A stretch of DNA of 64,000 nt, taken from contig CALUQH010000024.1 of NCBI GenBank assembly GCA_944322885.1, positions 1-64,000 of the forward strand, read 5' to 3'. Shown here piece by piece: positions 28,722-42,590 of the stretch; position 1 is the first letter of the stretch; each line of letters begins with the position of its first letter. The notes beneath the pieces are model-generated. The model had not been told where the DNA came from. It was given only the letters and a program-made list of their open reading frames with translations, and did no database searches. The stretch comes from Candidatus Gastranaerophilales bacterium. GTDB lineage: Bacteria > Cyanobacteriota > Vampirovibrionia > Gastranaerophilales > Gastranaerophilaceae. A program made the position numbers and the translations under genes.

Positions 28722-28722
28722 T

Positions 28723-29793
28723 ATGGTAAATTTATCGAATTTGTTTGATATCGGGAGAAATCTTTATGCGCTGCCTGCTTATAACAGTAGAAGCGGCCTT
28801 GCTCCTATACCTTTACGTTATTTTTTTGAATTAACTTACAGGTGTAATCTTCAGTGTCCTTATTGTTATGTCGGGGATGACAGAAAAAAAGATGAACTGA
28901 CGACTGACGAGTGGTTTAAAATTATTGATCAAATTCCCTGGTATTCTTTTGTTACGCTAGTAGGCGGAGAACCGTTAATAAGAAAAGATTTTATTGATAT
29001 TTTAATGAAAACTTCCAAAAAAACTTTTGGAAAACTCAATGTTGTTTCAAACGGTATTTTAATTAATGATGAAATTATTGATGCATTTATAAAAAGTAAA
29101 ATGATGCTTTTGTCTGTGTCTCTGGACGGTTACGGCAAAAATCATGATATAAATCGTGCAAAAGACGGCATCTGGGATAAAATTATGAACAATTTTGATA
29201 ATATGAATTCCCGCAAAAAACGCCCGATGGTTGATATTAAAACAATTGTTCTTGAAAATAATCTTGACGATTTAGTGAAACTTTATAAAATGTGTGACGA
29301 AAAGAAATTTAATTTTCTTTCGATTTCTTTTTTGAGAAATAATAATTTGAAACAAAATTCTGTTTTATTCGATAGTTTTGTCCCTGAATTTAATGCGAAT
29401 TATCCAATAGAAAAATATTTTGATATGGAGCATTTTAAAGAAGTATACAGGGAACTTGAAAGTTTAAGCAAAAAATCAAAAGTTAAAATCAGATTTTCTC
29501 CGAAATTTGAGTATTCAAATAATCCGCTTGCTAAGATTGAGGAATTTTTCAATACTCCTGCGGACAAACCTGTATCAGAGATTTATAAGCCGTGTATGTA
29601 TCCGTATTCCAATATGATGATAAATCCGCAGGGAGATGTTTATCCTTGTCTTTCTCAAAAAATCGGGAACGTTAAGGATATGCCTTTGAAGGATGTGTTT
29701 AACCTTCCGCATTACAGGTGTTTCAGAAAAAATTTAAAGGCTTCAAAGGTATTTGGCGCCTGTCAGATGTGCTGTGAACTGATTGTAAAATAG
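28723..29793 (+). CDS. Radical SAM/SPASM protein
   Basis: A 356-residue radical SAM enzyme. The cluster motif is CNLQCPYC (~residues 40-47), then LVGGEPLIRKDF. The C-terminal SPASM-like region has Cys in KPCMYPYSNM, GDVYPCLSQKIG and GACQMCCE, fitting one or two auxiliary [4Fe-4S] clusters. The family includes peptide-modifying and cofactor-maturing enzymes, but no precursor peptide is evident nearby. It starts 1 nt after zupT and ends before a ~230 bp regulatory gap. Confidence 0.85.
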   Translation: MVNLSNLFDIGRNLYALPAYNSRSGLAPIPLRYFFELTYRCNLQCPYCYVGDDRKKDELTTDEWFKIIDQIPWYSFVTLVGGEPLIRKDFIDILMKTSKKTFGKLNVVSNGILINDEIIDAFIKSKMMLLSVSLDGYGKNHDINRAKDGIWDKIMNNFDNMNSRKKRPMVDIKTIVLENNLDDLVKLYKMCDEKKFNFLSISFLRNNNLKQNSVLFDSFVPEFNANYPIEKYFDMEHFKEVYRELESLSKKSKVKIRFSPKFEYSNNPLAKIEEFFNTPADKPVSEIYKPCMYPYSNMMINPQGDVYPCLSQKIGNVKDMPLKDVFNLPHYRCFRKNLKASKVFGACQMCCELIVK

Positions 29794-29882
29794 CTTCACA
29801 AGGTACGTCAGGAGATATTTTTATCTGTCATTTTCATAATAAATGCATGGAGTTATTATTTTGTGTTTGGTCAATCATAATA

Positions 29883-29916
29883 TATGCATGAAAACATGGA
29901 TATGAATTCATGCATA
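29883..29916. repeat. Inverted repeat upstream of the phage-like region
   Basis: TATGCATGAA (29883-29892) and TTCATGCATA (29907-29916) form a perfect 10-bp inverted repeat with a 14-nt gap. It lies ~35 bp upstream of a TATACT box (29951-29956) and could be an operator. The rest of the 29794-30026 gap holds a weak stem (GTGGTTAA with TTTACCAC, 29963-30004) and no gene. Confidence 0.45.
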
Positions 29917-30026
29917 CATAAGTGTGGACTTTTCAAATTTTTAAAATACGTTATACTGAAAATGTGGTTAAGGTTCACGCCCAAAGACGGCAAAATTGTT
30001 TACCACGCGGGTTAGGGGATAGTAGT

Positions 30027-30407
30027 ATGGGTTATATACACTGCTGCGGTGCTCTGCATAAGACAAGAACTTTTCGTCTTGTTCCGCAGGATAATTTTGT
30101 TGTGTGTGAACTTGATTATCTGGCAAAATGTCCTGTGTGCGGGCATACCGTTGTTCAGCTTACAAGAATTGATGATAGTGATAATATTTCTATTGTCAGG
30201 AAAGTTAACAAGAAAGCAAAAATATTTTTTGAAAAGTTAAAAAATTTTATTTTATATGAAATTCGTTCAATTAATTATAACAAGATAAATACAGGAAAAT
30301 TTTACCTTAATTATAATGAATTCGGTGTAAAAAAAAGATGCTATTCAAATTTGAGAACATTAAAAATTGGATTGGCAGAAAATAAAGACCTGAAAATAAA
30401 TCCTTAA
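30027..30407 (+). CDS. Zinc-ribbon protein at the edge of the phage-like cluster
   Basis: A 126-residue protein with HCCGALHKTRTF near the start and KCPVCGH (~residues 33-39), giving a CC...CxxC zinc site. The second half is basic and Tyr/Asn-rich. I use the ATG at 30027, since the region upstream in frame looks non-coding and contains the promoter. It is similar in kind to small phage-encoded zinc proteins but cannot be assigned. A strong terminator follows, separating it from the structural genes. Confidence 0.5.
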   Translation: MGYIHCCGALHKTRTFRLVPQDNFVVCELDYLAKCPVCGHTVVQLTRIDDSDNISIVRKVNKKAKIFFEKLKNFILYEIRSINYNKINTGKFYLNYNEFGVKKRCYSNLRTLKIGLAENKDLKINP

Positions 30408-30423
30408 AATTATCTTACTCTCT

Positions 30424-30450
30424 GGGCGGATTACCCGCCCTCTTTTTTTT
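30424..30450 (+). terminator. Terminator
   Basis: GGGCGG / CCGCCC stem with a 5-nt loop and an eight-base T-run. It is GC-rich against an AT-rich background. Confidence 0.88.
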
Positions 30451-30531
30451 GAACGGAATTATTATGAATGAATTTTTAATATTTTTTAGTACGCTGAATG
30501 TAAAAATTTAAACATAAAGGGATTAAGAACA

Positions 30532-30786
30532 ATGATACTATCTCCAAGAGAAGAAAAAGTATTGTCTTTGGTCGCACTAGGGTATTCCGATAAACAAATA
30601 GCAGTAAAATTAGGCATATCATACGGAACAGTAAGAAATCATGTAGATAAGGCGGTTTTGAAATTGAATGCCCAGAACCGGACACATGCGGTGATGATTT
30701 ATAAGTTTATGAAAAAAGACTGGTTAGAGGAATTTTATGAAGCGAATAATAATACATTGGAGCGCGGGAGTATATTATCCGACTGA
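30532..30786 (+). CDS. Single-domain LuxR/GerE-type HTH regulator
   Basis: An 84-residue protein that is essentially one LuxR-type HTH: LSPREEKVLSLVALGYSDKQ, then IAVKLGISYGTVRNHVDKAVLKL. There is no receiver or autoinducer domain. It overlaps the start of the amidase gene by 50 nt, so the two are likely co-transcribed and co-evolved. It may control the lysis or particle genes. Such small LuxR-type proteins occur in phages of several phyla. Confidence 0.8.
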   Translation: MILSPREEKVLSLVALGYSDKQIAVKLGISYGTVRNHVDKAVLKLNAQNRTHAVMIYKFMKKDWLEEFYEANNNTLERGSILSD

Positions 30787-31228
30787 ATTTGAAAAAGAAC
30801 ATTATCATTTTTTGGTTGACAAAGACGGCAATGTTCATAATGGCAAATTTAAGCCTGAGGATAATGAATTTTGCAAAGTCGGAAAATATGCTGCACACAC
30901 AGGCGGCGGAAATACCGGAAGTATAGGAGTTGCATTGTGTGCAATGGCAGGATTTAAAAATAAAAATTCTGTTGGTAATTATCCGATTTTAAAAAAGCAG
31001 TTTGAAAGTGCAATGGAATTTTGTGCAAAGCTTTGCAGGAAGTACAAAATAGATGTTACACCGCAGACTGTAATGACACATTACGAGTTTGGAGTAAAAA
31101 ATCCAAAGACAACATCTGCCGGAAAAATTGATATTATATATCTCCCGTCTTATCCATGGGTTGCGCAGGAGGAAATAGGCAGTTTTATTCGTTCAAAAAT
31201 TAAATGGTATATGGTAAAGGGGGTATAA
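30737..31228 (+). CDS. N-acetylmuramoyl-L-alanine amidase (phage-type endolysin)
   Basis: A 163-residue single-domain amidase of the T7-lysozyme/PGRP fold. It cleaves the bond between MurNAc and L-Ala in peptidoglycan. Zinc ligands are likely His in IIHWSAG (~7), His in VMTHYEFGV (~117) and a distal Cys or Asp equivalent. AAHTGGGNTGSIGVALCAM is the conserved central strand. There is no signal peptide, as is usual for a holin-released endolysin. It is the first structural or lysis gene of the cluster and abuts the tail accessory gene. Confidence 0.85.
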   Translation: MKRIIIHWSAGVYYPTEFEKEHYHFLVDKDGNVHNGKFKPEDNEFCKVGKYAAHTGGGNTGSIGVALCAMAGFKNKNSVGNYPILKKQFESAMEFCAKLCRKYKIDVTPQTVMTHYEFGVKNPKTTSAGKIDIIYLPSYPWVAQEEIGSFIRSKIKWYMVKGV

Positions 31229-31232
31229 ACCT

Positions 31233-32741
31233 ATGGAAGTTTCTTACTATAATTTGGCCGGCGGAATAAATCAGTCGTTGACAAAGACAGAACTCGGGCT
31301 TGATACAAAAAAGATTTATTGGACAGATTCTGAGAATGTCGAAATATTTCAAAACAGGGGTATTATCAGACAGAATGGTAATTCTATATTTACAACGGTT
31401 GAAGAAGAAATTACGGGAATTGCCGAAATGTCTGCTTATGATAAGAGTAAGCTTGTTATAACAACGATTTCAGGGAAAATTTATATTTATAATGAAGTTA
31501 CAGCTGAAAAAATTCTTGTTGATAAAACTCTTACCGGAGTAAAGCCTGTATTTTTAAACTTTTTAAACGGCATACTTATAATGAGCGAGAGTGACGGGTT
31601 ATTTTACATTAAGAATAACAGCTCTTATGAAGTTGTAGACTGTAATTTAAAAGATCTGTCAGATAATGTTTTAACCGGCGGGGTCCTTGCAGTTTATAAA
31701 GGAAGAGTCTGGGTCGCAAAGGATGCAACAATTTATTACTCGGCTCTCGGTACATACAATGATTTTACAACTGAAAATGATGCAGGGTATATAAACGAAT
31801 TTCATACAGACACCGGTTCTATTACGGCCTTGAAAATGTATAAAGATTATCTTGCGATTTATAAAAAAGACAGTGTTTATCTATTGACAGGAACCAGCCC
31901 TGATGATTTTGCAATTACTCTGTTTGCAAATAAAGGAGCTGTGGCCCCTAAAGCTATAGCAAATGTTGAAAATAAACAATACTTTTTGAGCAACGGAATT
32001 TTTGCTCTTGAACAGGTTGGAGAACTAAACCAAATTCAGCTGGGGAACGAAATATCTTTGAAAATCAAAGAAGAATTTTCGTCTTTCGGAAAACTTGAAA
32101 ATACAATTTGTCTTCATTATGAAGCGAAAAGTCAGATGTGGTATTTCTTCCCTTATGCTGATGATGATTATTTTCATACGATATGGATAAATGACTATGT
32201 TAATAAGGCCTGGTACAAGCGTGTTGTGCCGCAAAATATTGTAACTGCCTGTATTTATGACGGAAATGTTTATACGGCAGACAGTTCAGGAAATATTTAC
32301 AGAGAAGATTTTGGGACAACTTTTAACGGTCAGGTTATTAAATTTATGTGGAAATCGCCGTTTCTTGCAATTACAAATGCTCACCACAGAAAAATGATAG
32401 ATGAGTTTTATTTTCTGCTTGATACAGAAAATGATAATGATTTTAATTTTTCTGTATATAAAGATTATGATAGTGAAATAGCCGATGATCCGGAAAGAAT
32501 TTATTCTGTACATCCGGAACATTTGATATGGGCGGATGAAACAACATCAGAAAGTCTTCCATGCCACTGGGCTAAAGATGATGAAAGTTATCCGGTTTGG
32601 CCGGTAAACAAAGATACTATGGAAAAAGCCGAGATATCTGAGTCAAACTACTCAATACAGCTTTGTGTATCAGGGGAAAATTCCGGTCAGTCATGCGCTA
32701 TTATAGGTCTTCAATTCAGAGAAATTTATAATGATGACTAA
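31233..32741 (+). CDS. Podovirus-type tail accessory/stabilisation protein (P22 gp10-like)
   Basis: A 502-residue protein, all-beta in appearance. It has an N-terminal GGINQSLTKTELGLDTK and repeated blade-like segments (GKIYIYNEVT; LAIYKKDSVYLLTGTSPD; KQYFLSNGIFALEQVGE). Position, length (P22 gp10 is ~470) and the opening segment fit the head-completion/tail-needle hub of P22-like podoviruses. I could not check this by structure, so the name is an inference. It starts 4 nt after the amidase stop. Confidence 0.6.
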   Translation: MEVSYYNLAGGINQSLTKTELGLDTKKIYWTDSENVEIFQNRGIIRQNGNSIFTTVEEEITGIAEMSAYDKSKLVITTISGKIYIYNEVTAEKILVDKTLTGVKPVFLNFLNGILIMSESDGLFYIKNNSSYEVVDCNLKDLSDNVLTGGVLAVYKGRVWVAKDATIYYSALGTYNDFTTENDAGYINEFHTDTGSITALKMYKDYLAIYKKDSVYLLTGTSPDDFAITLFANKGAVAPKAIANVENKQYFLSNGIFALEQVGELNQIQLGNEISLKIKEEFSSFGKLENTICLHYEAKSQMWYFFPYADDDYFHTIWINDYVNKAWYKRVVPQNIVTACIYDGNVYTADSSGNIYREDFGTTFNGQVIKFMWKSPFLAITNAHHRKMIDEFYFLLDTENDNDFNFSVYKDYDSEIADDPERIYSVHPEHLIWADETTSESLPCHWAKDDESYPVWPVNKDTMEKAEISESNYSIQLCVSGENSGQSCAIIGLQFREIYNDD

Positions 32742-32804
32742 TTATTTTTGAATATTTGCACTACTCATATTTATACTAGTTTAACAAAAGAAAGGAAACA
32801 AAAA

Positions 32805-33674
32805 ATGGCACAAGAATCTTCAACAAATGCTTATTCCGCATTTATTCCGGAAATTTGGAGCCAAAAATTAAACAACATGCTTACAAAAGAGTGTGTTATG
32901 CTCCAATGTGTTAACAGAAACTGGGAAGGCGAGATTAAAAATCAGGGCGATAAAGTAAAAATTATTCAGCCTGCTGACGTAACTATTTCGACTCTTGGAA
33001 CTGATACGCTTGAATATAAGGAATTAGCACCTACTTCTTTAGATTTGGTAATTGATCAGAAAAAATTCTTTGCATTTAAAATTAATGATGTTGCTCAGGT
33101 TCAGGCAAACACTGATATTATGGAAGCTCATCTTAGAAATGCTAAAAAAGCTATTGAAGAAGTGCAGGATGCTTATCTGCTTTCATTGCATTCAAATGTT
33201 ACGACCGCAAATACTGTAGGCTCTGAATCTTCAGCAGTTTCTCTTGACAAGACTACAATTTACTCAAAATTTGTAGAACTCGCCTTGTGTTTGAAAAATT
33301 CAGATGCCGTAACTGCAGGTACAAGACCATGGGTTGTTATTAACCCGACTATTGAATCTTATCTCCTTCAAAGTTCTGAATTTATCGGTGCACACAATGT
33401 TGCTGATGAAACTTTGAGAGAAGGTGCAATAGGAAGAATTGCCGGCATGGATGTTCTTGTAAGTACAAATTTAACTGATGTTTCAGGGAAATACTACGTT
33501 CTTGCAGGTACAAACGAAGCTATCACTTTTGCATCTCAGCTCGCTAAAATTGAAAGCTTAAGAGATCAAAGCAGCTTCTCTGATCTGGTAAGAGGCTTAT
33601 ATTTATACGGAGCAAAAGTTGTCCAGCCGAATGCATTAGCTAAAATGATAGTTACTGCTCCAACAGGTGATTAA
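32805..33674 (+). CDS. Major capsid protein (HK97-fold, P22/coat-like)
   Basis: A 289-residue coat protein. The N-terminus (TNAYSAFIPEIWSQKLNNML) and the axial-domain segment RPWVVINPTIESYLL are typical, as are GRIAGMDVLVSTNL and the closing GLYLYGAKVVQPNALAKM. The ATG at 32805 is chosen because AAAGGAAAC precedes it; an upstream frame from 32748 lacks support. No delta-domain scaffold or protease is fused. A hairpin follows, so capsid mRNA may be stabilised or segmented. Confidence 0.85.
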   Translation: MAQESSTNAYSAFIPEIWSQKLNNMLTKECVMLQCVNRNWEGEIKNQGDKVKIIQPADVTISTLGTDTLEYKELAPTSLDLVIDQKKFFAFKINDVAQVQANTDIMEAHLRNAKKAIEEVQDAYLLSLHSNVTTANTVGSESSAVSLDKTTIYSKFVELALCLKNSDAVTAGTRPWVVINPTIESYLLQSSEFIGAHNVADETLREGAIGRIAGMDVLVSTNLTDVSGKYYVLAGTNEAITFASQLAKIESLRDQSSFSDLVRGLYLYGAKVVQPNALAKMIVTAPTGD

Positions 33675-33701
33675 TAACAACTGATTGCTTCTTATACCCC
33701 G

Positions 33702-33735
33702 AATGCATCTTCGATAATTTTTTCGGAGATGCATT
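33702..33735 (+). terminator. Hairpin after the capsid gene
   Basis: AATGCATCTTCGA pairs with TCGGAGATGCATT (13 bp with one G-U). There is no T-run after it, so it may be an mRNA-stabilising or processing stem rather than a full stop. Confidence 0.5.
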
Positions 33736-33756
33736 ATTAAAAAAATGAGGTAAATT

Positions 33757-33993
33757 ATGTTTAGTAAATTAAAGGAAACTATTAAGGAGCTTGCAAAAAC
33801 TGCTGTCGTAAAGGCTGAAGAAACTCTCGGAAGCCAAAAAGGACAGGAGAAAAAAGATATGGCAATAAATTATATAGTTAGTCATATTCCTGTGTTCGCT
33901 CCTTTAAAACCGCTGATTTCAATGCTTTTATCATCTTTTATTGATGATGCGGTTGAATTTGCAGTGGAATATATGAAAAGTGAGGTACTATGA
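33757..33993 (+). CDS. Small holin-like protein
   Basis: A 78-residue protein with an amphipathic Lys/Ala N-terminal helix, a KGQEKKDMA hinge and a moderately hydrophobic C-terminal half (IVSHIPVFAPLKPLISMLLS). The layout recalls the short LL-H-type phage holins, which carry a similar KGxEKK segment. One membrane segment at most is visible, so the call is tentative. It overlaps the next gene by 4 nt (ATGA). Amidase and holin would be split by the tail and capsid genes. Confidence 0.4.
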   Translation: MFSKLKETIKELAKTAVVKAEETLGSQKGQEKKDMAINYIVSHIPVFAPLKPLISMLLSSFIDDAVEFAVEYMKSEVL

Positions 33994-34640
33994 ATCCGAC
34001 AAATATAGAAAATCTTTCATCCTACGCCGGTAATCAAACTGCGGCGGGCGGAAATCAGCCGTTGAATAATGATTTACAATCAATAAAACAAACGGTTTTA
34101 AAAGACATTCAGGTTATTGAAAATCTTGTACAAACAGGAGCCATGACGCAAGAACAAGGACAAAATTTAATGAATTATGTTACTAAAAAGGCGTTTGAAA
34201 AGTATACATTAAGTCAACAGAACAGTCAGAACCCTGTTAATATGATGCAACAAGCTCCTTCTGTAGCTCAAAATGTTCCGGCAGCTGATGTCGTTCCGGA
34301 ATTTTTTAACAGAGATGGAAGGCTTGACGTTTTTGATTACCTGAAAAATTCAAATGCTGCATTTGATCAGGATGAACTCTCTAAGATATCAGCTCTGGTG
34401 GAAAAAATTGAAAATACCGCTATTGAAAGATACTTGAGAGAAAAAAATCACGAAAAAACATTAAACAGCGAAAACGAGGCCGCTAAGCAAAAACTTCGTG
34501 CTTATGCACAAAATTCTGCTTATGACGGTAATAAGAATCTGGTTTTTACCCGTGAACAAATCGGCAAAATGAGTGGTGCAGAATTTGCTAAATACGAACG
34601 TATGATTATGGATCAGTTAAGGAAAGGTCTTATAAAATAG
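33990..34640 (+). CDS. Putative scaffolding-type protein
   Basis: A 216-residue, highly charged, Gln/Asn-rich helical protein. Low-complexity stretches lie near residues 1-30 and 75-100, and the C-terminus is basic (MDQLRKGLIK), as in P22-type scaffolds whose basic end binds coat protein. It has no Cys and no membrane segment. Direct linkage to capsid and holin-like genes supports the guess. It could also be a portal-proximal accessory protein. Confidence 0.4.
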   Translation: MNPTNIENLSSYAGNQTAAGGNQPLNNDLQSIKQTVLKDIQVIENLVQTGAMTQEQGQNLMNYVTKKAFEKYTLSQQNSQNPVNMMQQAPSVAQNVPAADVVPEFFNRDGRLDVFDYLKNSNAAFDQDELSKISALVEKIENTAIERYLREKNHEKTLNSENEAAKQKLRAYAQNSAYDGNKNLVFTREQIGKMSGAEFAKYERMIMDQLRKGLIK

Positions 34641-34664
34641 CAAAATTCAAAAAACTTTTAAGGG

Positions 34665-34694
34665 AAAACAGTCTTTTTTAAGGCTGTTTTTTCT
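34665..34694 (+). terminator. Terminator after the scaffold-like gene
   Basis: AAAACAGTC pairs with GGCTGTTTT (one G-U) across a T-rich loop, then TTCTT. Confidence 0.65.
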
Positions 34695-34716
34695 TAAAAG
34701 CAATGAAAGGAAATTT

Positions 34717-35355
34717 ATGAACTATTTGGAACTTATTAATAAATGTCTTGTGGAATTAAATTATAAACAGGTTAATGCTTTTTCGGAATTAACAAAAAAT
34801 GACCATAAAAAGTTAAAAAATATTTTAAATATTGTCAACACTGATGTGTGCGGTTTTGACAGATGGAATTTTTTAATGAGAAAGAAAACAATAACTTTAC
34901 CGGCCCAAACCGGAGAAATTGATAATACGGTAGAGGGACGAATAGAAGCAGTAATTGCAGACGGAGTGAAATTTGACTATTATCAGGACTTTGAAACATT
35001 CTTTGTTAATACTCAGCCTCAAAATACGTATAGTTTATTTAATGATAAGATTTTGTTTCCTGTTTTTAATAGGGACAAAACTATAGAAATTTTATATTAT
35101 ACAAAAAATTGTGCAGTAAATTCACAGGGTTTGGAAAAATTACAGATGGAAGAAGAGGAAGACTCCTCTTTAATTCCGGAGCCTTATGTTGAACCTATAC
35201 TTGTTTACGGAGCTTGTATGAAGCTGAAAGGCAATCCGGAACATGTTCGTTTTAGTTACTGGTACAGCATGTACAAAGAGGCTCTTGCAAATTTGCGCTC
35301 AAGAGTTTCCCCAAGCATTGATGACACTCCGTCTGTAAGATTATTCAGAAGGTAG
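34717..35355 (+). CDS. Head-tail adaptor protein (P22 gp4-like)
   Basis: A 212-residue protein. The N-terminal helices (YLELINKCLVELNYKQVNAF) and the DRWNFLMRKKTITLPAQ strand, then KILFPVFNR and EPILVYGACMKLKG, follow the head-completion adaptor family that lines the portal exit in podoviruses. Length is near that of P22 gp4 (~166) and the T7-type adaptor (~195). AAAGGAAA precedes the ATG. A 334-bp gap without a plus-strand gene follows. Confidence 0.55.
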   Translation: MNYLELINKCLVELNYKQVNAFSELTKNDHKKLKNILNIVNTDVCGFDRWNFLMRKKTITLPAQTGEIDNTVEGRIEAVIADGVKFDYYQDFETFFVNTQPQNTYSLFNDKILFPVFNRDKTIEILYYTKNCAVNSQGLEKLQMEEEEDSSLIPEPYVEPILVYGACMKLKGNPEHVRFSYWYSMYKEALANLRSRVSPSIDDTPSVRLFRR

Positions 35356-35528
35356 CAAAGCGGCTGCGTGTAGCATTGCCGTTCGCGATAAACGGTACCG
35401 CTCACAACAACACCGAAAACTCAACGTTTCCGTTGATTGTTGTTCGTCTTTCGCTATGCTCATACCTCTGCTCATTTTCAGCCATGTATAACGGGTTTAT
35501 GTAAGACTTAATGTGGCTACATGCGTAG
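35356..35528. other. Gap with hairpin-forming sequence, no supported gene
   Basis: No coding frame is convincing. The segment holds nested inverted repeats (CAACG TTTC CGTTG near 35418-35432; CCGTT / AACGG near 35384-35398). A 28-codon minus-strand frame exists but has no Shine-Dalgarno. It could be structural or packaging-related. Confidence 0.4.
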
Positions 35529-35602
35529 CATAAAAAAAACAGGAAGTTTAAAATTCATTTTCCCCTCCTGTTAAGATTTACACTAGCCGAAATATAAATA
35601 GC
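35529..35602 (-). ncRNA. Short minus-strand RNA inside the phage-like cluster
   Basis: On the minus strand a promoter (35609-35637) is followed ~7 nt later by a ~75-nt stretch. It ends in a hairpin, AACAGGA / TCCTGTT (35542-35572) with an inner AAAAT / ATTTT, and then eight T. An AGGAGG and a 13-codon ORF (ATG 35558, stop at 35517) overlap the hairpin, so a tiny peptide is possible but the ribosome site would be partly folded. It is antisense to nothing known and lies just upstream of terS. Confidence 0.5.
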
Positions 35603-35608
35603 ATGTTT

Positions 35609-35637
35609 ATTATACAATTTTTTTTCAAAAAATACAA
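35609..35637 (-). promoter_or_regulatory. Minus-strand promoter of the short RNA
   Basis: On the minus strand TTGTAT (35632-35637), a 17-bp spacer and TATAAT (35609-35614). No gene other than the short RNA lies downstream on that strand. Confidence 0.55.
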
Positions 35638-35689
35638 ATTATACTAAGATTTGTAACGAAAGTACATAATTAAACAAATTTATAAACCA

Positions 35690-36124
35690 ATGAAAAAATT
35701 AACAAACCAGCAGAAAAAATTTGTTTTGGAATATATAAAATCCCTTAACGGCGAACTTTCAGCCCAAAAGGCAGGATATAAATCAAAAGACTTAAAAACA
35801 ATTGCATCTGAACTTTTATCAAAAGATTCTATCATACACGAAATTAAATCTCAGTTGAAGAAGCAGATAGCTTCTTTGAGAGTGAATAAAGGTTATGTTA
35901 TTCAAAAACTTCTCCAGATAGCTGAATTTTCTCTTGAGGAAGAAGATATTCTTGATAAAGAGGGATGCATTACCGGAAAAAAGAAACTTAGAGATACATC
36001 CGCAGGCTTAAAAGCGCTGGAAAGTCTTTGCAAATATCTGGGATTTACGTCAAATCAGGGTGAGGAAGAATATAAGCAGGCAAAAATTATTACAATTTCT
36101 AATCTTGATGACAGCAAAATTTAG
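35690..36124 (+). CDS. Terminase small subunit
   Basis: A 144-residue protein. The N-terminal HTH-like DNA-binding region is LTNQQKKFVLEYIKSLNG, then AQKAGYKSKD and LLSKDSIIHEI, the classic layout of phage terminase small subunits (Terminase_2 type). The central helices (GYVIQKLLQIAEFSLEEED) form the oligomerisation part. It recognises the packaging site and works with TerL. TerL lies 2.7 kb downstream, split from it by two unrelated genes and the portal, which is unusual. No Shine-Dalgarno is obvious. Confidence 0.82.
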   Translation: MKKLTNQQKKFVLEYIKSLNGELSAQKAGYKSKDLKTIASELLSKDSIIHEIKSQLKKQIASLRVNKGYVIQKLLQIAEFSLEEEDILDKEGCITGKKKLRDTSAGLKALESLCKYLGFTSNQGEEEYKQAKIITISNLDDSKI

Positions 36125-36142
36125 TTAAAAGGAGATTTTTTT

Positions 36143-36493
36143 ATGAAGAATAATAATGCGGAAGAAATGCTTTTAAACAATACATCTTTGGATGAACTCA
36201 TTAAAATGCGGATAGAAAAAGAATTTATGGATGATTTGAAAAAATCGAAAGAAAAGCCTGAAAAGAAAGAATACACAAATATAAAAGATTTACCGAAAGA
36301 TAAGATTTTTTCAAAATATTCAGTATTTCGCTGTTTCAACAGAAATACAAAATGTGAAACTTTCATAAACGGAATTCAGGCAGATGCACTTATCGGTATT
36401 CAGGATACGGTGAGAAAAAATATGCTTGAGGGGAAATTAAGTGCATTTACAACTGATGATTCTTATATAAAGTTTGAGAAGGCTGTATTTTAA
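36143..36493 (+). CDS. Charged small protein, unknown
   Basis: A 116-residue protein that I do not recognise. The N-terminal half is acidic and Lys-rich and likely helical (DELIKMRIEKEFMDDLKK). The second half has FSKYSVFRCFNRNTKCETFI and may be a small folded domain. AAAAGGAG precedes the ATG. It overlaps the GNAT gene by one base (TAATG), so it is translationally coupled to it and probably its functional partner. Confidence 0.5.
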   Translation: MKNNNAEEMLLNNTSLDELIKMRIEKEFMDDLKKSKEKPEKKEYTNIKDLPKDKIFSKYSVFRCFNRNTKCETFINGIQADALIGIQDTVRKNMLEGKLSAFTTDDSYIKFEKAVF

Positions 36494-36993
36494 TGACTAA
36501 ATTTATATCACCTTTTGCAAAACCTGCGTATTTTGAGCAGGCTTTATTTTTGTACTCGAAATATTGCGGTTTTATGGATGATGACTATGCTTTGAACGGC
36601 AGGTCGCTTTTTGAATATTTTTATAATCTTATTTTAAGAACTCAGCCGTTTTTCTTTGTCATTGCAGAAGACGACATTGTCAGCGGGTTGGTATATCTGG
36701 ACAATATAACGGGTGACAGCGAGAGACTTCACAGTGCAGAGGTTACAACCTGTTTTGATAAACGCTTTTGGGGTGATTACACAAAATATTGTGCAAAGTT
36801 ATTTTTTGAATACTGTTTTAAAAAATACAATTTCGTAAAAATAAAAGCACTTGTTTATCCTGAGAATTTTCGTGTAAAAACTCTTTTAAAGGCTGCAGGT
36901 TTTGAGAGGGAAGCGCTGCTGAAAAATGAAACATTAAGAAAAGGAAAATTACAGGATATAGAGGTATATTCGGTTTTTAATAATTATTGCTGA
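36493..36993 (+). CDS. GNAT-family acetyltransferase in the phage-like cluster
   Basis: A 166-residue GNAT protein. The strand and helix order is visible in FFFVIAEDDIVSGLVYLDNI, AEVTTCFDKRFWGDYTKY, then VKIKALVYPENFRVKTLLKAAGFEREALLKN. The last segment is the standard end of RimJ/RimL-like GNATs. Its acceptor is unknown. Acetyltransferases of this kind are often found near terminase genes in phages. It is coupled to the gene before it. Confidence 0.75.
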   Translation: MTKFISPFAKPAYFEQALFLYSKYCGFMDDDYALNGRSLFEYFYNLILRTQPFFFVIAEDDIVSGLVYLDNITGDSERLHSAEVTTCFDKRFWGDYTKYCAKLFFEYCFKKYNFVKIKALVYPENFRVKTLLKAAGFEREALLKNETLRKGKLQDIEVYSVFNNYC

Positions 36994-37004
36994 AAATATC
37001 ATAG

Positions 37005-37097
37005 GTCTGATGAATATCGACGGAAAGGATAAAAGAGGAGGTGTAACCTCTGGCATGAATATTAAAAGTCTGATGAATATTGACGGAAAGGATAAAA
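37005..37097 (+). repeat. 63-nt tandem duplication before the portal gene
   Basis: A 30-nt unit at 37005-37034 recurs at 37068-37097 with one mismatch, a 63-nt period. Each copy carries GGAAAGGATAAAA, so the portal's ribosome-binding region is duplicated. Between them is a GAGGT-GTA-ACCTC palindrome (37037-37049). Confidence 0.75.
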
Positions 37098-37100
37098 AGA

Positions 37101-38765
37101 ATGAAGATAGAAACAGAAGATTTAACACAGAAACTTTCTCCTGTTGAAGAAAGTTTTTTATTAGGGAATATAACCGAAAAATATGATCGTTTTAACGAAC
37201 AGAGAAGTTCACAGCTCAGTGATATTAAACTTGTCAGGGATGCTGTTTATAACACCGGTATTCCGGTTGGAAACAGTTGGGACAGTAATATTGAACTGCC
37301 CGATATTTACGAGCTTGCACAGACTTTGAAATCACATATAAGCGAAAATTTGTATTCACATCCCGATGCTATGTTTGATGTCGGGGGAACAACTCCGCAG
37401 ACACAAGGTTTTGCGAACAAGCAGAAAGCTATGCTTGTAAATACTTTTGAGAACATGAAACTTGAGGATGAGATTGAAAAGGTTATAGACAGTATAGTTG
37501 AAACAGGTGAGAGCACTCTGTTTGTCGGCTGGGAAACGAAGATTAAATCAATAAGGCGCCCTCAGACGATTGAAGAACAGCTTTTGAACCCGGAGAAAAA
37601 CGGTTTTGTTATTGATGAAAAAGTTATCTATGATAATGCAAAAGTAAAACATATAAACGCCGAAGATTTTGTTTTTGACAAATATAATGTCGATAACTGG
37701 GATAAGTGTGCAAAAATTTACAGAACTTATTCGACTATAGATGAATTGTTTTCGGATAAGGCAAATAACATGCTTGATGATAGAAAACTGGAAGTATTGA
37801 AAGGAGTGGTGGCAGGTAAAAAATATCCTAATAATGACGATAATGACGGCGCAGTTGAGGGCAAAAAAGTAGAAATTCTTGAATACTGGGGAGATATTGA
37901 ACTTTCAGACGGCCGGCTTTTGAAAAACTGGTTAATTGTTGTTGCTGCAAGGCGCGAGATTATAAGATTTGAAAGTAATCCTTTTGTGATAAATCCGTTT
38001 ATCCACGCAAATATTATAGAATCTCCTTACACAAGAAGGGGTATTTCTCCTTTAAGAGTTGCTTTGATATTAAATAATCTCGCATCAACCATTATGAATA
38101 AACAGATTGATGCGCTTGCACTAATGATAAATCCTCCTTATCTTGCGCCTAAAGGGTGTTTTAAGGGCCAGCAGGATGTAAAACCCGGAAAAATTATAGA
38201 ATACGATGCGGCATTAATGCCTACAGCACCGACTCCGTTGTCATTTGACAAAGCTATGGTCGGCTGGGATTTCTTAAATTATTTCAAATCAACAATTGAA
38301 AGTGCGACGGGAATTTTCAAAAATATGGCGGGAAATATTCAATCGGCACAAAGAACAGCTACGGAACTTAATTATTCTGTTAGCGGTCAGGAAGCCCGAT
38401 TGAATATGATACTTGACGCTATAAACAGAAAAATTATTGTCCCGATGGTTGAAAAAACCGCAGAAATTATATCTTACTTTAAACTCGGAAGTGAAGTAAT
38501 CGGAGTAAACGACAGAGGAAAAACAAGTTTTCTTGAAATAACTGATGAAATCAGAAATGCGACTTACATATACAGATACGGCGACAGGAAAGCTACATTT
38601 GAGAGAAAGGCAAGATTAAAAGAACTTTTTGAGGTTGTAAGTTCATTTGCGCAGGTTCCTGAGGTAGAAGAAAAAATAGATTGGCTTGAGTGTTTTAAAT
38701 TTGCACTTGAACAGTACGGAATAGAAAACGCAAACAATTTTTTACTTGGTGACGACAAAACATAG
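37101..38765 (+). CDS. Phage portal protein (podovirus type)
   Basis: A 554-residue portal protein, the dodecameric gate through which DNA enters the capsid. Family features are the N-terminal QRSSQLSDIKLVRDA, NSWDSNIELPDIYELAQTL, the wing region with WETKIKSIRRP, LIVVAARREIIRFESNPF, SPYTRRGISPLRVALILNNL and the SAQRTATELNYSVSGQEARL crown. The ATG at 37101 is chosen because AAAGGATAAAA precedes it. Length fits P22-like portals minus the long barrel. A hairpin terminator lies right at its end, before terL. Confidence 0.85.
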   Translation: MKIETEDLTQKLSPVEESFLLGNITEKYDRFNEQRSSQLSDIKLVRDAVYNTGIPVGNSWDSNIELPDIYELAQTLKSHISENLYSHPDAMFDVGGTTPQTQGFANKQKAMLVNTFENMKLEDEIEKVIDSIVETGESTLFVGWETKIKSIRRPQTIEEQLLNPEKNGFVIDEKVIYDNAKVKHINAEDFVFDKYNVDNWDKCAKIYRTYSTIDELFSDKANNMLDDRKLEVLKGVVAGKKYPNNDDNDGAVEGKKVEILEYWGDIELSDGRLLKNWLIVVAARREIIRFESNPFVINPFIHANIIESPYTRRGISPLRVALILNNLASTIMNKQIDALALMINPPYLAPKGCFKGQQDVKPGKIIEYDAALMPTAPTPLSFDKAMVGWDFLNYFKSTIESATGIFKNMAGNIQSAQRTATELNYSVSGQEARLNMILDAINRKIIVPMVEKTAEIISYFKLGSEVIGVNDRGKTSFLEITDEIRNATYIYRYGDRKATFERKARLKELFEVVSSFAQVPEVEEKIDWLECFKFALEQYGIENANNFLLGDDKT

Positions 38766-38790
38766 TGCCGCAAAAGCGGCACTTTTATTT
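38764..38790 (+). terminator. Terminator between portal and terL
   Basis: AGTGCCGC / GCGGCACT, an 8-bp stem with an AAAA loop and a following TTTTATTT. It starts at the portal stop codon. Confidence 0.85.
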
Positions 38791-38800
38791 AGATGGCAAA

Positions 38801-40105
38801 ATGACAGAGAATGTTATGGAATACAAATTATTAAAAGCCCAGAGGGAATTTTTGGAAATTCCCCATGATTACACACTGGATGTTGCTGTTTATCAGGGAG
38901 GTTACGGCTCAGGCAAAACTTTTGCAGGTTCTCTTCTAGGAATTTTGCTTGCATTAAAATTTCCGGGAGTGCGCGGACTTGTCGGTGCACAGACTTATAC
39001 TCTTGTAAGAGATACGACATTACAAACATACTTTGAACATCTGGAAAATTTTGGTTTTGTTGACGGAATAGACTATGAATGGTCGTCAACTTTACAAAAA
39101 CTTACTTTTAAAAACGGATCGGAAATCCTTTTCAGGCATTTTGACGAGCCGAATAAATTAAAGTCTTTAAATCTGGGATTTGTAGAGATTGAGGAAATGT
39201 CTGATATTCCTTACGATACTTTTAAAATGCTTATCGGACGTATGAGACAGAGGGTTAAGAAAGTATGGAAAAATTTTACTTATCGAATTTTCGGACATAC
39301 TAATCCAGAGATGCAAAGAGGCTGGATTTATAAAACTTTTGTTGAAAGTCCGGCTCCGAATTACAGGCTTATTACGGCTCCGACAACCCAGAATATTTAT
39401 CTGCCCGAAGGCTTTTGTGATGAATTGAAAAAACTTTATGATGAGCAGTATTACAATATTTTTGTACTTGCACAAAACGGCGAATATAATAACGGGCTTG
39501 TTATAAAGGATTTTACCTCTGAAAATATAAGGGATATAACTTATCAGCCAGATATGGATTTGCATATTTCGTGCGATTTTAATGTTGACCCTATGTGCTG
39601 GGTTTTTGCACATAAAACTGATGATAAGGTTTTTTATTTTGACGAAATAGCTATGGAAAATACCACAACCGCAAAAGCCTGTGATGAATTTTACAGACGG
39701 TACCCCAATCATAAAGGAAAAGTTATAGTAAACGGCGACGCATCAGGCGATAACAGAAGCTGCACAAGTGAATATACAAATTACGTAATAATTAAGAAAA
39801 AACTTCTGCAATACGGGTATGATGTAGAAATTCAGATAAAAGCATTTAACCCGCCTATAAAAAACAGGATTATGGCATTTAATGCGAAAGTTCGTTCAGC
39901 AGAGGGTGAAGTCTGTCTTTTTGTTGATAAAAAATGTGAAAAACTCCTTTATAACATCTACAACCTGAAATATAAGGAAGGTTCTTCTAAAATAGACATT
40001 CCGACCTATCAGCAGATAAAACAGTCCAAAGAACTTAAATTCTTATCTCACCCGATAGATGCCGCTTCATATCTTGTGGATTTTTACTGGCCGATAAGTT
40101 TGTAA
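38801..40105 (+). CDS. Terminase large subunit
   Basis: A 434-residue packaging motor. The ATPase domain has the Walker A GGYGSGKTFAG (~residues 35-45) and Walker B with catalytic Glu in LGFVEIEEMSD. The nuclease domain has three acidic sites: SCDFNVDPMCWVF, VNGDASGDN and HPIDAASYLVDF. All key residues appear intact. The ATG at 38801 follows the terminator. It is the last large gene of the cluster; a hairpin and a ~320-bp gap follow. Confidence 0.92.
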   Translation: MTENVMEYKLLKAQREFLEIPHDYTLDVAVYQGGYGSGKTFAGSLLGILLALKFPGVRGLVGAQTYTLVRDTTLQTYFEHLENFGFVDGIDYEWSSTLQKLTFKNGSEILFRHFDEPNKLKSLNLGFVEIEEMSDIPYDTFKMLIGRMRQRVKKVWKNFTYRIFGHTNPEMQRGWIYKTFVESPAPNYRLITAPTTQNIYLPEGFCDELKKLYDEQYYNIFVLAQNGEYNNGLVIKDFTSENIRDITYQPDMDLHISCDFNVDPMCWVFAHKTDDKVFYFDEIAMENTTTAKACDEFYRRYPNHKGKVIVNGDASGDNRSCTSEYTNYVIIKKKLLQYGYDVEIQIKAFNPPIKNRIMAFNAKVRSAEGEVCLFVDKKCEKLLYNIYNLKYKEGSSKIDIPTYQQIKQSKELKFLSHPIDAASYLVDFYWPISL

Positions 40106-40141
40106 GAGTTTACTTATTTTAAAAACTCAGGAAAAATAATA

Positions 40142-40166
40142 AGCCTTCCCTGATTAGGGAAGGTTT
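40142..40166 (+). terminator. Hairpin after terL
   Basis: CCTTCCCT / AGGGAAGG, an 8-bp stem with a GATT loop and three T. It lies ~38 nt after the terL stop. Confidence 0.65.
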
Positions 40167-40238
40167 GGATGGGTATTAATTTGATGCAAAAATTTATTAA
40201 AGAAGATAGGAAGATAAGAAGGTAACCTATTAAAGTAG

Positions 40239-40354
40239 ACAGAGGGCACGAGGTCAGGATGTCAAGCTAGTATCATTAATAAGTCTTTGAACAATTTTAT
40301 CACCCCGTCTATAAATGAAAGTAGCCTGTCTTCCTGACCTCCGTGGGCTTCTGT
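40239..40354. repeat. Long imperfect inverted repeat
   Basis: ACAGAGGGCACGAGGTCAGG (from 40239) pairs with CCTGACCTCCGTGGGCTTCT (within 40331-40354) with a few mismatches, ~70 nt apart. No gene lies inside. It could be a small degenerate mobile element, a structured RNA or a particle packaging element. The rest of the 40106-40424 gap has no gene. Confidence 0.45.
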
Positions 40355-40377
40355 TTTCCGACAATCACCCACCCCTG

Positions 40378-40397
40378 CCCTCCCTAGCCAGGGAGGG
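40378..40397 (+). repeat. GC-rich perfect hairpin
   Basis: CCCTCCCT / AGGGAGGG, an 8-bp stem with an AGCC loop, in an otherwise AT-rich region. It lies ~28 nt upstream of a small coiled-coil gene. There is no T-run, so it is not a classic terminator. Confidence 0.6.
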
Positions 40398-40424
40398 ATA
40401 TATTACAATAAAAAGGAAATAAAA

Positions 40425-40655
40425 ATGGAAAAAATTATAGAATATTCTCCAATAATAATAGTTGTGTTGATGTTTTTTGTTCAACAAAGGCTCTTTGTAA
40501 CTCCCGAACAGCTTGAGAAAAAACATAGAGAAATTATCGAGGAAATTGAAGAAAAATTTGTTACAATACACAGTTTTATAGACTTAAAAGATCAATTTTC
40601 CGAAGTCAAAGACAAAATTGATAAAATATATGATTTGCTGATTGATTTAAAATAA
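40425..40655 (+). CDS. Small membrane-anchored coiled-coil protein
   Basis: A 76-residue protein. Residues ~7-20 form one membrane segment (SPIIIVVLMFFVQQ), and the rest is a charged coiled coil (LEKKHREIIEEIEEKF; FSEVKDKIDKIYDLLID). Small TM-plus-coil proteins next to terminase genes are common in phages and can act in lysis or as accessory spanin-like factors. AAAAGGAAA precedes the ATG. The exact role is unknown. Confidence 0.55.
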   Translation: MEKIIEYSPIIIVVLMFFVQQRLFVTPEQLEKKHREIIEEIEEKFVTIHSFIDLKDQFSEVKDKIDKIYDLLIDLK

Positions 40656-40790
40656 TGTTAATAAATGTAACATTTTTGTTTTTGTTGTTTAAAGTTTTGA
40701 CTGTGAAATGCCGTTATAACGAATAACAGACATGTTGTTACTAAGATATCATAAAAATTCAGGCAAAATCATCAGAAAGGATTAAAAAAA

Positions 40791-42485
40791 ATGGGATTGG
40801 CAGCTTCACAAGCAAGATTTTTGGCCATAACTTCACGGAAGATGAACTGTGAATTTCAGTCCATGCAAATTGCACAGGACAAACTTTCAGTTACCCGTGA
40901 CCTGCAATCTGCTGCTACCAAATACCAGAATTCAATGAATGCAACAAAACTTGTCTGGGATACTGATACTGATGAAGTTTATGATTTGTCTTATGATTTA
41001 TTAATGACCCCTTCAGCCTTGAATGATTATAACCCGTATTTGATTACGGATGCACAGGGCAAAATTGTTCTTAGTGATACTATGTTTGCGGCAGCTCTGG
41101 AGGCCGGTATTATTAATGAAAAAGGTGACCCGACCGGTAAGGCAATGTACACACAATCCGGTATTGAAATCGGCGGGGAAAAAGTCACTGCAGGTTCCCG
41201 TGATGCATTTATAGATGCACTTGTCAGCAATGGTGAACTTGCAGCAACAACTGCAGATTCTGTTAAGTCTCATGATTATACCAAATCAGGAATCGGTGGA
41301 GAAATTCTTGACAAAACAATTGCAAACGCCTTGACAATAACAGCTTTAATACAGGAATTATCTGGAACATATGAAGAAGATGATGAGAGTGGTCATAAAG
41401 AAGGTGAATTAAAATACAGCTTTGCAGAGGCATTAGGGATAGATTTAAGTGATTCTAGTACTGCGGATAAAAAAATGGATGATATGTTCTGTTATACTAC
41501 TTCTCCTAATACTTCAGAACAGAATGAGGATGGGGATTATATAATTTCAAATAATGGAACCGCATTAACCAGAGACGAAATAAAAAATCTGTCTATCGGT
41601 GATTTGCTGTCCGGTAAATATTCTATAACAAAAGTAGGCGCAGATGATTTCGATGTAAAAGCTGAGATATTAGAAAAACTTGCTACTGCTCTTGGGTATG
41701 ATGGAGGCGATAAAATTACCGGTATAGGGATAAATGTTGATGACCAATCGGCTAGTGCTCTTAGTTCTGCACTAAGTTTTACAAACCAGCATTATCTTGA
41801 TAATGCGGAAACTGTCAGCGGCGGTAGTACAGCCCAGAAAATTGCAAATCTAATTAACAAATCACCTGATTATAACGGTGTTATTCATTCAGATGTCGGG
41901 GAATCTGTAAGTTTAACGAACCTGTTGAAAACATATTTGACTTATTTTGCGATAGCTCTTGACGGAGCTGAAAGTACTTTATTTAGTATTGAAGATAAAA
42001 CATCAGAAAGTCAATATGTTACAGATGATTATAATTACTATTTCCTTATAAGCGACAGTGAAGCTGTTACTGAAACGGACTTATTAACTACAGATTTTTA
42101 TAACCAGTTGTATAACCAGATATGTACGAACGGTGCCACCACAGATGCAATCAAAAGAGATATGGTGCAAGATCCGGAGTATTTGATGCAGGCCTTGAAA
42201 AACGGTCAGTTATTTATTTCCAGCTTAAATACAGACGGATATTTCTATCAGGGACATTATACATTAAACGGCTACGTTGCCGAGGTTACTGATGAAGCAG
42301 CAATTGCACAGGCTGAAATGGAGTACGAAATTACAAAAACCAAGTTGAATTATAAAGAAGAAACACTTGATTTGAAAATGAAAAATATAGATACTGAATT
42401 ATCGGCGTTAACAACCGAATATGATACGGTTAAAAACCTTATCAGTAAAAACGTCGAAAAAGTATTTACAATGTTTAGTACTTAG
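40791..42485 (+). CDS. Large flagellin-like / type III-like filament candidate
   Basis: A 564-residue protein that does not match a named family for me. The N-terminal ~60 residues are helical and resemble export and polymerisation segments of flagellin-like proteins: MGLAASQARFLAITSRKMNC, then SVTRDLQSAATKYQNSMNA. The C-terminal ~70 residues are a coiled coil (EITKTKLNYKEETLDLKMKN; LSALTTEYDTVKNLISKN) ending KVFTMFST. The middle (~90-490) is variable and Ser/Thr/Asp/Gly-rich. Helical conserved ends around a variable centre are the plan of flagellin, hook-associated and EspA-like filaments. No signal peptide is present, which fits type III export. AGAAAGGA precedes the ATG. Confidence 0.5.
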   Translation: MGLAASQARFLAITSRKMNCEFQSMQIAQDKLSVTRDLQSAATKYQNSMNATKLVWDTDTDEVYDLSYDLLMTPSALNDYNPYLITDAQGKIVLSDTMFAAALEAGIINEKGDPTGKAMYTQSGIEIGGEKVTAGSRDAFIDALVSNGELAATTADSVKSHDYTKSGIGGEILDKTIANALTITALIQELSGTYEEDDESGHKEGELKYSFAEALGIDLSDSSTADKKMDDMFCYTTSPNTSEQNEDGDYIISNNGTALTRDEIKNLSIGDLLSGKYSITKVGADDFDVKAEILEKLATALGYDGGDKITGIGINVDDQSASALSSALSFTNQHYLDNAETVSGGSTAQKIANLINKSPDYNGVIHSDVGESVSLTNLLKTYLTYFAIALDGAESTLFSIEDKTSESQYVTDDYNYYFLISDSEAVTETDLLTTDFYNQLYNQICTNGATTDAIKRDMVQDPEYLMQALKNGQLFISSLNTDGYFYQGHYTLNGYVAEVTDEAAIAQAEMEYEITKTKLNYKEETLDLKMKNIDTELSALTTEYDTVKNLISKNVEKVFTMFST

Positions 42486-42590
42486 TAAATCTATTATGTA
42501 AAATATAAATATTTCCTTAAGGGATATCAATTTTTCCTTGTCCATGTTAGTATTATAAATATAATACCAGACGGAGAGGAAAATTTTATA

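Follow-up and report, generated by a model that had tools for sequence, protein, structure and literature searches.

What purpose is served by a compact cluster of podovirus-like genes lodged among the ordinary genes of a bacterium of the Gastranaerophilales, non-photosynthetic cyanobacteria of the gut? The cluster occupies positions 30532-40655 of a 64,000-nucleotide stretch of DNA from Candidatus Gastranaerophilales bacterium (GenBank assembly GCA_944322885.1, contig CALUQH010000024.1, positions 1 to 64,000; hereafter the window), on contig C24 of a 1.86-Mb genome (G000). An original prediction made from the sequence had listed there, as apparently intact, genes for an amidase, a gp10-like protein, a capsid, a holin-like protein, a scaffold-like protein, an adaptor, a small terminase (TerS), a GNAT protein, a portal and a large terminase (TerL), and had found a domesticated particle or gene transfer agent (GTA) as fitting as a defective prophage. 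All of these genes proved to be present, and the list of open reading frames (ORFs) and family searches place every cluster gene of the window on the + strand, with all ORFs open. Our analysis leads us to propose, with a probability of about 0.7, that the cluster encodes a domesticated podovirus-like, DNA-packaging particle of the Gastranaerophilales that is loaded with tagged enzymes, and that these enzymes stand in for phage ejection proteins. By its gene content, the cluster holds all the parts for a procapsid and for DNA pumping (capsid, scaffold, portal, TerS and TerL), in addition to a connector, a nozzle and lysis genes (amidase and holin).

The distribution of the cluster was surveyed in a family sample of 146 genomes, most of them metagenome-assembled genomes (MAGs), so that absences may be gaps. 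TerL and the capsid each had a match in 91 of the 146; when a carrier was defined by a capsid identity of at least 70%, a hand count gave 62 carriers in 17 genera. Each carrier has one copy, with the exception of divergent extra copies such as a prophage in G101, and of G140, whose cluster is in two pieces. A TerL search of named records yielded 205 confirmed matches, of which 80 were kept as loci; the named records are Gastranaerophilales or Melainabacteria MAGs, some of them evidently misnamed or unspecific. Gene order was identical in 29 fetched loci (L061-L089), although single genes went undetected in some, and the flanks were largely shared, with a radical SAM, zinc-ribbon or ZIP gene directly upstream in 25 of the 29 and a 564-aa protein family directly downstream in 20. 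Amidase and TerL were both present in 44 of the 80 named loci: 39 had the full order, four lacked a detectable holin, one lacked gp10, holin and GNAT, and none had another gene order. All six other sampled genomes of the window's own genus carry the cluster.

Several lines of evidence indicate that this distribution reflects descent. A concatenated tree of eight cluster proteins from 27 genomes had 14 of 24 splits in common with an rpoB tree (mean 0.24 and maximum 3 in 500 shuffles) and recovered 9 of 10 supported rpoB splits, and cluster and rpoB distances were correlated with a Mantel r of 0.827 (maximum 0.44 in 2000 permutations). The ratio of nonsynonymous (dN) to synonymous (dS) divergence, omega, was low in every cluster gene, ranging from 0.034 (TerL) to 0.169 (scaffold) against L062 and from 0.003 to 0.30 wherever dS was estimable and changes were many, dS being saturated in many of these comparisons. 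The packaging genes are among the most constrained in the cluster, and against L063 TerL has a dN of 0.041, compared with 0.031 for SecA. The Walker A, Walker B and three nuclease motifs are kept in 89 of 89 distinct full-length TerL proteins, and in 29 of 29 loci no stop was found past residue 13 of the compared stretches, those at or before that residue looking like start-site artefacts. These sequence comparisons show that the cluster has descended mainly by vertical inheritance, at a host locus that is mostly fixed, and that purifying selection keeps it, as the original prediction had proposed checking in related genomes; together with single copy, shared locus and lack of decay they strongly support its domesticated particle and not its defective prophage. 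The genomic features expected of a GTA were found, namely structural and packaging genes in the chromosome, cluster ORFs devoid of replication or integration genes, vertical inheritance and purifying selection. As predicted, no integrase, repressor, replication or tail-fibre gene occurs among the cluster ORFs; no whole-genome search for an integrase was made. As a separate observation, dS between the window and L061 (G099), the closest species, is uneven over 26.5-40.7 kb (0.31 in fliI, 0-0.09 in most of the cluster and 0.25 in the portal gene), a pattern that suggests that parts of the cluster have passed between species by homologous exchange.

The second body of evidence comes from enzymes that end like the scaffold. 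A profile hidden Markov model (HMM) was built from the final 62 residues of 30 scaffolds. Applied to all ORFs of the loci collected, at an E-value of 0.01 or better, it matched 172 scaffolds along with 50 further ORFs (37 distinct), the latter with E-values down to 2e-26; one of the 50, in L311, is a phage scaffold and not cargo, and those of L149 are one gene in two pieces. Many tagged ORFs carry two tags in tandem, and they are situated in the gap between the portal and TerL genes, near TerL or elsewhere in the genome. Portal-TerL gaps longer than 400 bases were found 26 times among 65 loci, 11 of them with a tagged ORF. The tagged enzymes fall into lysozyme, muramidase, lipase, nuclease and DUF6973 classes, their front domains including Glyco_hydro_108 (E 4e-27), DUF6973 (1e-13), Lipase_3 (7e-8), PBECR1 nuclease (2e-13), LPD3 (7e-8) and Phage_Mu_F (8e-7). 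The window's own genome encodes such a cargo protein on a contig other than that of the cluster (G000:C26, about 30192-31163; listed among the tag matches as G000:C26:30762-31043), in an ORF of 344 codons with two tags and a lysozyme-like front (PHROG 27932 tail lysozyme, 2e-18; Pfam matches below cut-off only). Two cargo proteins match the last 30-40 residues of PHROG 13678, a family of unknown function (E 0.003-0.005). Encoded in trans and outside the region covered by the original prediction, the tagged enzymes change the likely purpose of the cluster.

A genome-wide profile built from 13 tails, applied to the 146 genomes with tags counted by hand, found matches in 80. At least one tag match beyond the scaffold was present in 51 of 62 carriers, compared with 9 of 74 cluster-free genomes (one weak match each; Fisher p 4e-17, a value that does not count independent events because the genomes are related). 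The 74 leave out nine genomes with divergent cousin clusters (G008, G037, G046, G066, G067, G079, G095, G115 and G133) as well as G051, in which TerL is close but the capsid match is distant; tags were matched in every one of the ten. In most cargo proteins there is also a second motif, either VYVxPYTRxDGTxVxGYYRS or WVTINGNHVLI, which in most cases forms the extreme C-terminus (for example in L435, L442-L474 and L496-L501). One tagged protein (L469, 1289-2110) bears a serum amyloid A domain (SAA, PF00277, E 1.7e-18), which is unexpected in a bacterium.

A second lineage repeats this arrangement with another tail. In genera g24, g28, g29, g34 and g40, identity to the window's proteins is about 57% for TerL and about 25% for the capsid, and the scaffolds end in a different sequence, of the type KKRLTDMTPEEL. 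When five such tails were combined into a profile, it recovered the scaffolds and detected the tail again in further ORFs, located either on different contigs or at another place on the same contig. Among five of these proteins that were read, the tail is exactly C-terminal in three (one DUF6973-like and two lipase-like proteins), and in two further lipase-like proteins it stops four residues short of the end. The five-tail profile found nothing in the control genomes G000, G099, G012 and G032, and in G001 a single match inside a protein (E 0.23); the 13-tail profile found nothing in G024, G028, G029, G034 and G040 and gave a single weak match in G131 (0.005). The strongest argument for a loading role of the tag is that one set of enzyme families bears different tails, in each case resembling that of the local scaffold. 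In the second-lineage proteins that were read, a YxRxDGTxVxxxxR motif precedes the scaffold tail.

Two more variants of the cluster were seen in passing. Genus g8 (L090, L091, L179) has a reduced cluster of capsid, gp10, GNAT and TerL, in which no portal or TerS was found; it adjoins several tagged lipases, and G046 has 16 tag matches in all. Genera g36 and g37 (L093-L096) have a cousin compact cluster, not located near the radical SAM and SecA genes, in the order HTH (helix-turn-helix regulator)-amidase-gp10-adaptor-GNAT-capsid-scaffold-TerS-portal-TerL-76-aa protein, and that of g36 comes with its own tagged DUF6973-like proteins. This cousin cluster is possibly the product of the same domestication, rearranged.

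Free relatives show what the cluster has kept and lost. The capsid matched 62 contigs in IMG/VR, 42 of them at 71% identity or more, followed by single contigs at 55%, 45% and 39% and then by matches of 33% and less. The 42 have the compact cluster order and often host genes at their ends (in some SecA, YchF or radical SAM genes), and therefore look like host fragments filed as viruses; host-like loci from this source include L246-L261, L326-L357 and others. A phage contig of 37.9 kb, L359 (IMGVR_UViG_3300010163_000089; capsid 45%), is ordered TerL-portal-scaffold-capsid-adaptor-gp10-GNAT-ejection-type proteins, so that the permuted order noticed in the window is real. Both L359 and prophage L097 share with the cluster homologous TerL (62-65%), capsid (42-45%), portal, an adaptor-like ORF, gp10 and a GNAT-like ORF (in L359 at 13468-13848, 3' of gp10), but differ from it in their TerL-portal-scaffold-capsid order and in possessing ejection-type proteins, which the cluster is without. 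The S74 ejection-type protein of L359 has a match in the G101 prophage (E 4e-107) and was absent from 19 of 20 carriers tested, four of which gave weak partial matches; other ejection-type proteins were not searched. This result goes against the linked tail module that the original prediction had named as evidence against a domesticated particle. The best named phages reached 31% for TerL and 42% for the capsid, and PHROG had no name for the scaffolds of the free phages.

Precedents exist for loading and delivery of this kind. In PMC9962691, residues 238-303 or 141-303 of the P22 scaffold are enough to load fused cargo, and, as proposed for the cluster tags, it is the C-terminal helix-turn-helix of the scaffold that carries the fused protein into the capsid; the P22 system is engineered, whereas the tags look like a natural gene set. 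This engineered loading, together with the delivery of the T4 enzyme Alt, is the ground on which the tagged enzymes are held to be packed by scaffold mimicry. Alt and other T4 internal proteins bear a capsid targeting sequence, the T4 tag being a peptide. T4 is a lytic phage with a targeting peptide of its own, whereas the tag described here is a copy of scaffold sequence, frequently present twice, and belongs with a shell inherited by the host. Polyvalent proteins and MuF-linked toxins of phages are also comparable with the cargo. In the main text of PMC5512222, which does not contain the word "scaffold", Alt is an enzyme packed in the head and delivered with the DNA, and polyvalent proteins with PBECR nuclease, LPD3, lysozyme and MuF-like domains are predicted to be packed and injected. 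The cargo described here differs from these in that its loading tag is visible and its genes lie in trans to a domesticated head.

We infer that the tagged enzymes act as effectors and that scaffold mimicry brings them into the capsid, and envisage the following course. The LuxR-type regulator would turn the cluster on in some cells, where scaffold and tagged enzymes would co-assemble with capsid protein, so that the enzymes would end up inside. TerS and TerL would pump DNA, by analogy that of the host, into the head; the continued constraint on TerS, TerL and portal suggests that the particle takes up DNA as well as enzymes. Holin and amidase would lyse the producer and release a particle containing DNA and enzymes, the latter replacing the lost ejection proteins, and the enzymes might help entry into a neighbouring cell or attack it. 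Enzymes that degrade wall and lipid would suit entry, and nucleases would suit attack. In its broadest form, to which we would give even odds, the proposal is of a new class of bacterial delivery machine, an inherited DNA-packaging phage head with swappable, trans-encoded enzymes addressed by copies of the scaffold tail, which would have arisen with two scaffold tails in one family.

A number of observations weigh against the domesticated, enzyme-loaded particle and have to be set beside the evidence above. Some genera have lost the cluster: none of the five g2 genomes carries it, while the radical SAM gene is kept, and it is therefore not essential. Near that gene in the five genomes there was no cluster remnant except one HTH match, and no clean empty site; the absence from sister strains with clean sites that the original prediction had regarded as contrary evidence was thus seen neither there nor in the window's own genus. 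In g17, gp10 was found in none of six genomes, so that the nozzle is not needed there, and tblastn in three loci found no GNAT, holin or 76-aa protein; g17 keeps capsid, scaffold, packaging genes and tagged proteins. Eleven of the 62 carriers have no tag beyond the scaffold, ten showing the scaffold alone and G083 (57% complete) nothing. Tags of the main lineage did not match the scaffold of their own genus preferentially (41 of 84, Wilcoxon p 0.20), with the exception of g17 (mean +15.2, 8 tags). The second-lineage matches are short and weak alone (E 3e-4 to 0.5; 3e-5 to 3e-4 with a shorter model), and two pairs of supported deep splits conflict between the cluster and rpoB trees. Finally, no receptor-binding protein was found, the cluster containing no fibre.

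Among rival explanations, the one closest to the proposed particle is a plain GTA that transfers random host DNA only, the scaffold-like stretches on enzymes having another job or being relics of recombination. RcGTA of the Alphaproteobacteria resembles the cluster in vertical inheritance, strong constraint and a likely mode of host lysis and particle release; RcGTA is siphovirus-like, whereas the cluster genes are podovirus-like, of the SU10/P22 type. Of known systems the cluster is most like the FpGTA of Faecalibacterium, described in the main text of PMC12946183 as a predicted podovirus-like system conserved across a gut genus, with a holin and an endolysin and a chromosomal operon of roughly 10 kb (operon I: TerS, TerL, portal, scaffold and capsid), for which particles and 8.4-8.9 kb of random host DNA were measured; that main text contains no "Gastranaerophil-", "Melainabacteria", "Cyanobacteri-" or "Vampirovibri-" strings. 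The likeness, assessed by gene content, lies in the head and packaging gene set of about 10 kb, the gut host and the lysis genes; the shared gene set and size, together with the strong constraint on packaging genes, speak for a plain GTA. The cluster differs in belonging to another phylum, in uniting nozzle and lysis genes in one locus, in spanning 17 genera, and in having scaffold-tagged enzymes and no receptor-binding protein found. We consider a plain GTA unlikely, since tagged proteins co-occur with the cluster, keep recognisable enzymatic domains and in the second lineage use the local scaffold tail. Somewhat less likely again is that host effectors possess the tag as a general helical domain with a job of its own, such as binding a secretion adaptor, and that its resemblance to the scaffold is incidental. 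The distance of tags from scaffolds (mean BLOSUM score 21.9, compared with 99.1 from scaffold to scaffold), the missing genus-level matching and the position of many cargo genes far from the cluster would agree with this, but in free phages the scaffold, encoded at its canonical position between portal and capsid, has this sequence at its end, cluster-free genomes mostly lack it, and a different tail is matched on the same enzyme families in the second lineage.

Two further possibilities concern the cluster itself. One might suspect an immobilised satellite or interference element that uses its capsid parts to sabotage or hijack infecting phages, given that related phages occur in the same hosts or habitat (L097, L359) and that capsid-forming satellites have head and packaging genes without a full tail. 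We rejected a capsid-forming satellite on account of the vertical inheritance, the fixed locus and the lack of an integrase among the cluster ORFs; with the lysis genes kept and no PADLOC match beyond HTH similarity in the eight proteins scanned, the satellite explanation as a whole appears improbable. Hardly credible is an ordinary fossil, a defective prophage remnant, for which one could cite the missing integrase, replication and tail-fibre genes and some partly decayed copies in g8 (L091); the intact reading frames, the low omega and an order that is the same across genera led us to reject it. A tailless reading was likewise dropped, as the adaptor is kept and the gp10 model has a nozzle fold.

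If the domesticated, enzyme-loaded particle is real, it would be a family-wide particle of podovirus type in an uncultured gut lineage related to cyanobacteria, following shortly after the first reported podovirus-like GTA candidate. Scaffold mimicry, if true, would account for the way in which a capsid receives its effectors and would turn the engineered P22 trick into a natural mechanism, and its signature, in which a scaffold tail is used to search a genome for copies, would predict hidden cargo in other GTAs and phages. The IMG/VR matches also indicate that public viral collections contain host-encoded particle genes labelled viral. Text searches in PMC, with preprints and most subscription papers outside their scope, found no published particle in the Gastranaerophilales and no natural scaffold-tagged enzymes.

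The genes of the cluster, all on the + strand, are as follows. A single-domain LuxR/GerE regulator (30532-30786; Pfam GerE 1.5e-16) leads it, as had been predicted, and is the first gene in most carriers. After it come the N-acetylmuramoyl-L-alanine amidase for lysis (30737-31228; Amidase_2 5.5e-13, PHROG 5867 endolysin 1.5e-35), the gp10-like tail nozzle protein (31233-32741; PHROG 3287 4.8e-19), the major capsid protein (32748-33674; PHROG 267 2.1e-50, Phage_capsid_4) and the holin-like protein (33757-33993; Phage_holin_6_1 7e-5, just below the Pfam cut-off, and PHROG 6918 6e-7). The AlphaFold model of gp10 is all-beta (mean predicted local distance difference test score, pLDDT, 81; predicted template modelling score, pTM, 0.83), and its best Foldseek matches are podovirus nozzles, including those of Pa223, SU10, Pam1 and P22 gp10 (E down to 5e-18), so that it is predicted to fold like a tail nozzle of the P22/SU10 type; family searches and this model together place portal, adaptor and nozzle of SU10/P22 type in the cluster. 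The scaffolding protein (33990-34640) has homologues between portal and capsid in five free phage contigs and ends in the helix-turn-helix (34545-34637) whose sequence is repeated in the cargo tags. Its model consists mostly of long helices, with pLDDT 72-85 in the C-terminal helix-turn-helix; Foldseek gave no match below E 0.6, as expected for a floppy helical protein with a mean pLDDT of 66.

The head-tail adaptor (34717-35355; SU10_adaptor 8.9e-6, just below cut-off) and TerS (35690-36124; Terminase_2 1e-18) are followed by a conserved 116-aa protein (36143-36493), a weak relative of a small protein that intervenes between capsid and adaptor in some free phages, and by the GNAT-family acetyltransferase-like protein (36493-36993; Acetyltransf_4 3e-7), the portal protein (37080-38765; SU10_portal 7e-18, PHROG 332 3.9e-33) and TerL (38816-40105; Terminase_3 2.5e-20). 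The TerL ORF is listed from 38765, but a start near 38816 is more likely than the listed GTG, which lies inside a strong terminator-like hairpin (38764-38783); TerL orthologues begin at query residues about 15-18. Because TerL is a Terminase_3 protein, the TerL family PF03354 had no match in the window's own genome. A 76-aa membrane/coiled-coil protein (40425-40655), also present near TerL in free phage contigs, forms the conserved end of the cluster. Upstream, a small zinc-ribbon ORF (29922-30407, +, with its conserved part from about 30027) is likely associated and may belong to the cluster set; it precedes the HTH gene in most carrier loci, and the free phage contigs L262, L267, L300 and L305 contain weak relatives.

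The flanks are host genes, with a FliI/YscN-type ATPase, a ZIP transporter and a radical SAM gene upstream and, downstream, the 564-aa protein and then two further host genes, which we take to be SecA and YchF; G+C content is 34.9% in the cluster and 35.2% in the remaining window. The 564-aa protein (40791-42485) evolves fast, being 67% identical to that of L061 while its neighbours are 98-100% identical, and its start motif recurs in a protein adjoining prophage L097. No tRNA was found in the window, and Rfam detected no RNA at gathering threshold in 28000-43000. A terminator scan gave 16 candidates on both strands (6.7 +/- 2.7 in shuffles), yet of the several terminators said to break the cluster, one strong + strand hairpin stood inside it (38764-38783, in the portal-TerL gap, GTGCCGC..GCGGCAC with a T tail) and one upstream (30424-30440, +, intrinsic-terminator-like), which parts the cluster from the genes before it; the other + strand candidates are weak and mostly in coding sequence. 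The portal-TerL hairpin is unique within its own genome and may be a terminator, a small RNA or a processing site. The same hairpin or a near variant, followed by T and with different, longer loops, lies in the portal-TerL gap of several genera (L069, L075, L079, L081-L083, L126, L128, L134, L156, L157 and others), and many of the loops contain a CTCCTC-like pyrimidine stretch. The upstream regions of the cluster and of the own-genome cargo gene had no common motif above shuffles (score 18, shuffle mean 19.3). Adjoining that cargo gene, on the opposite strand, are two small ORFs (L435, 2701-3161) that by eye resemble LuxR/HTH regulators.

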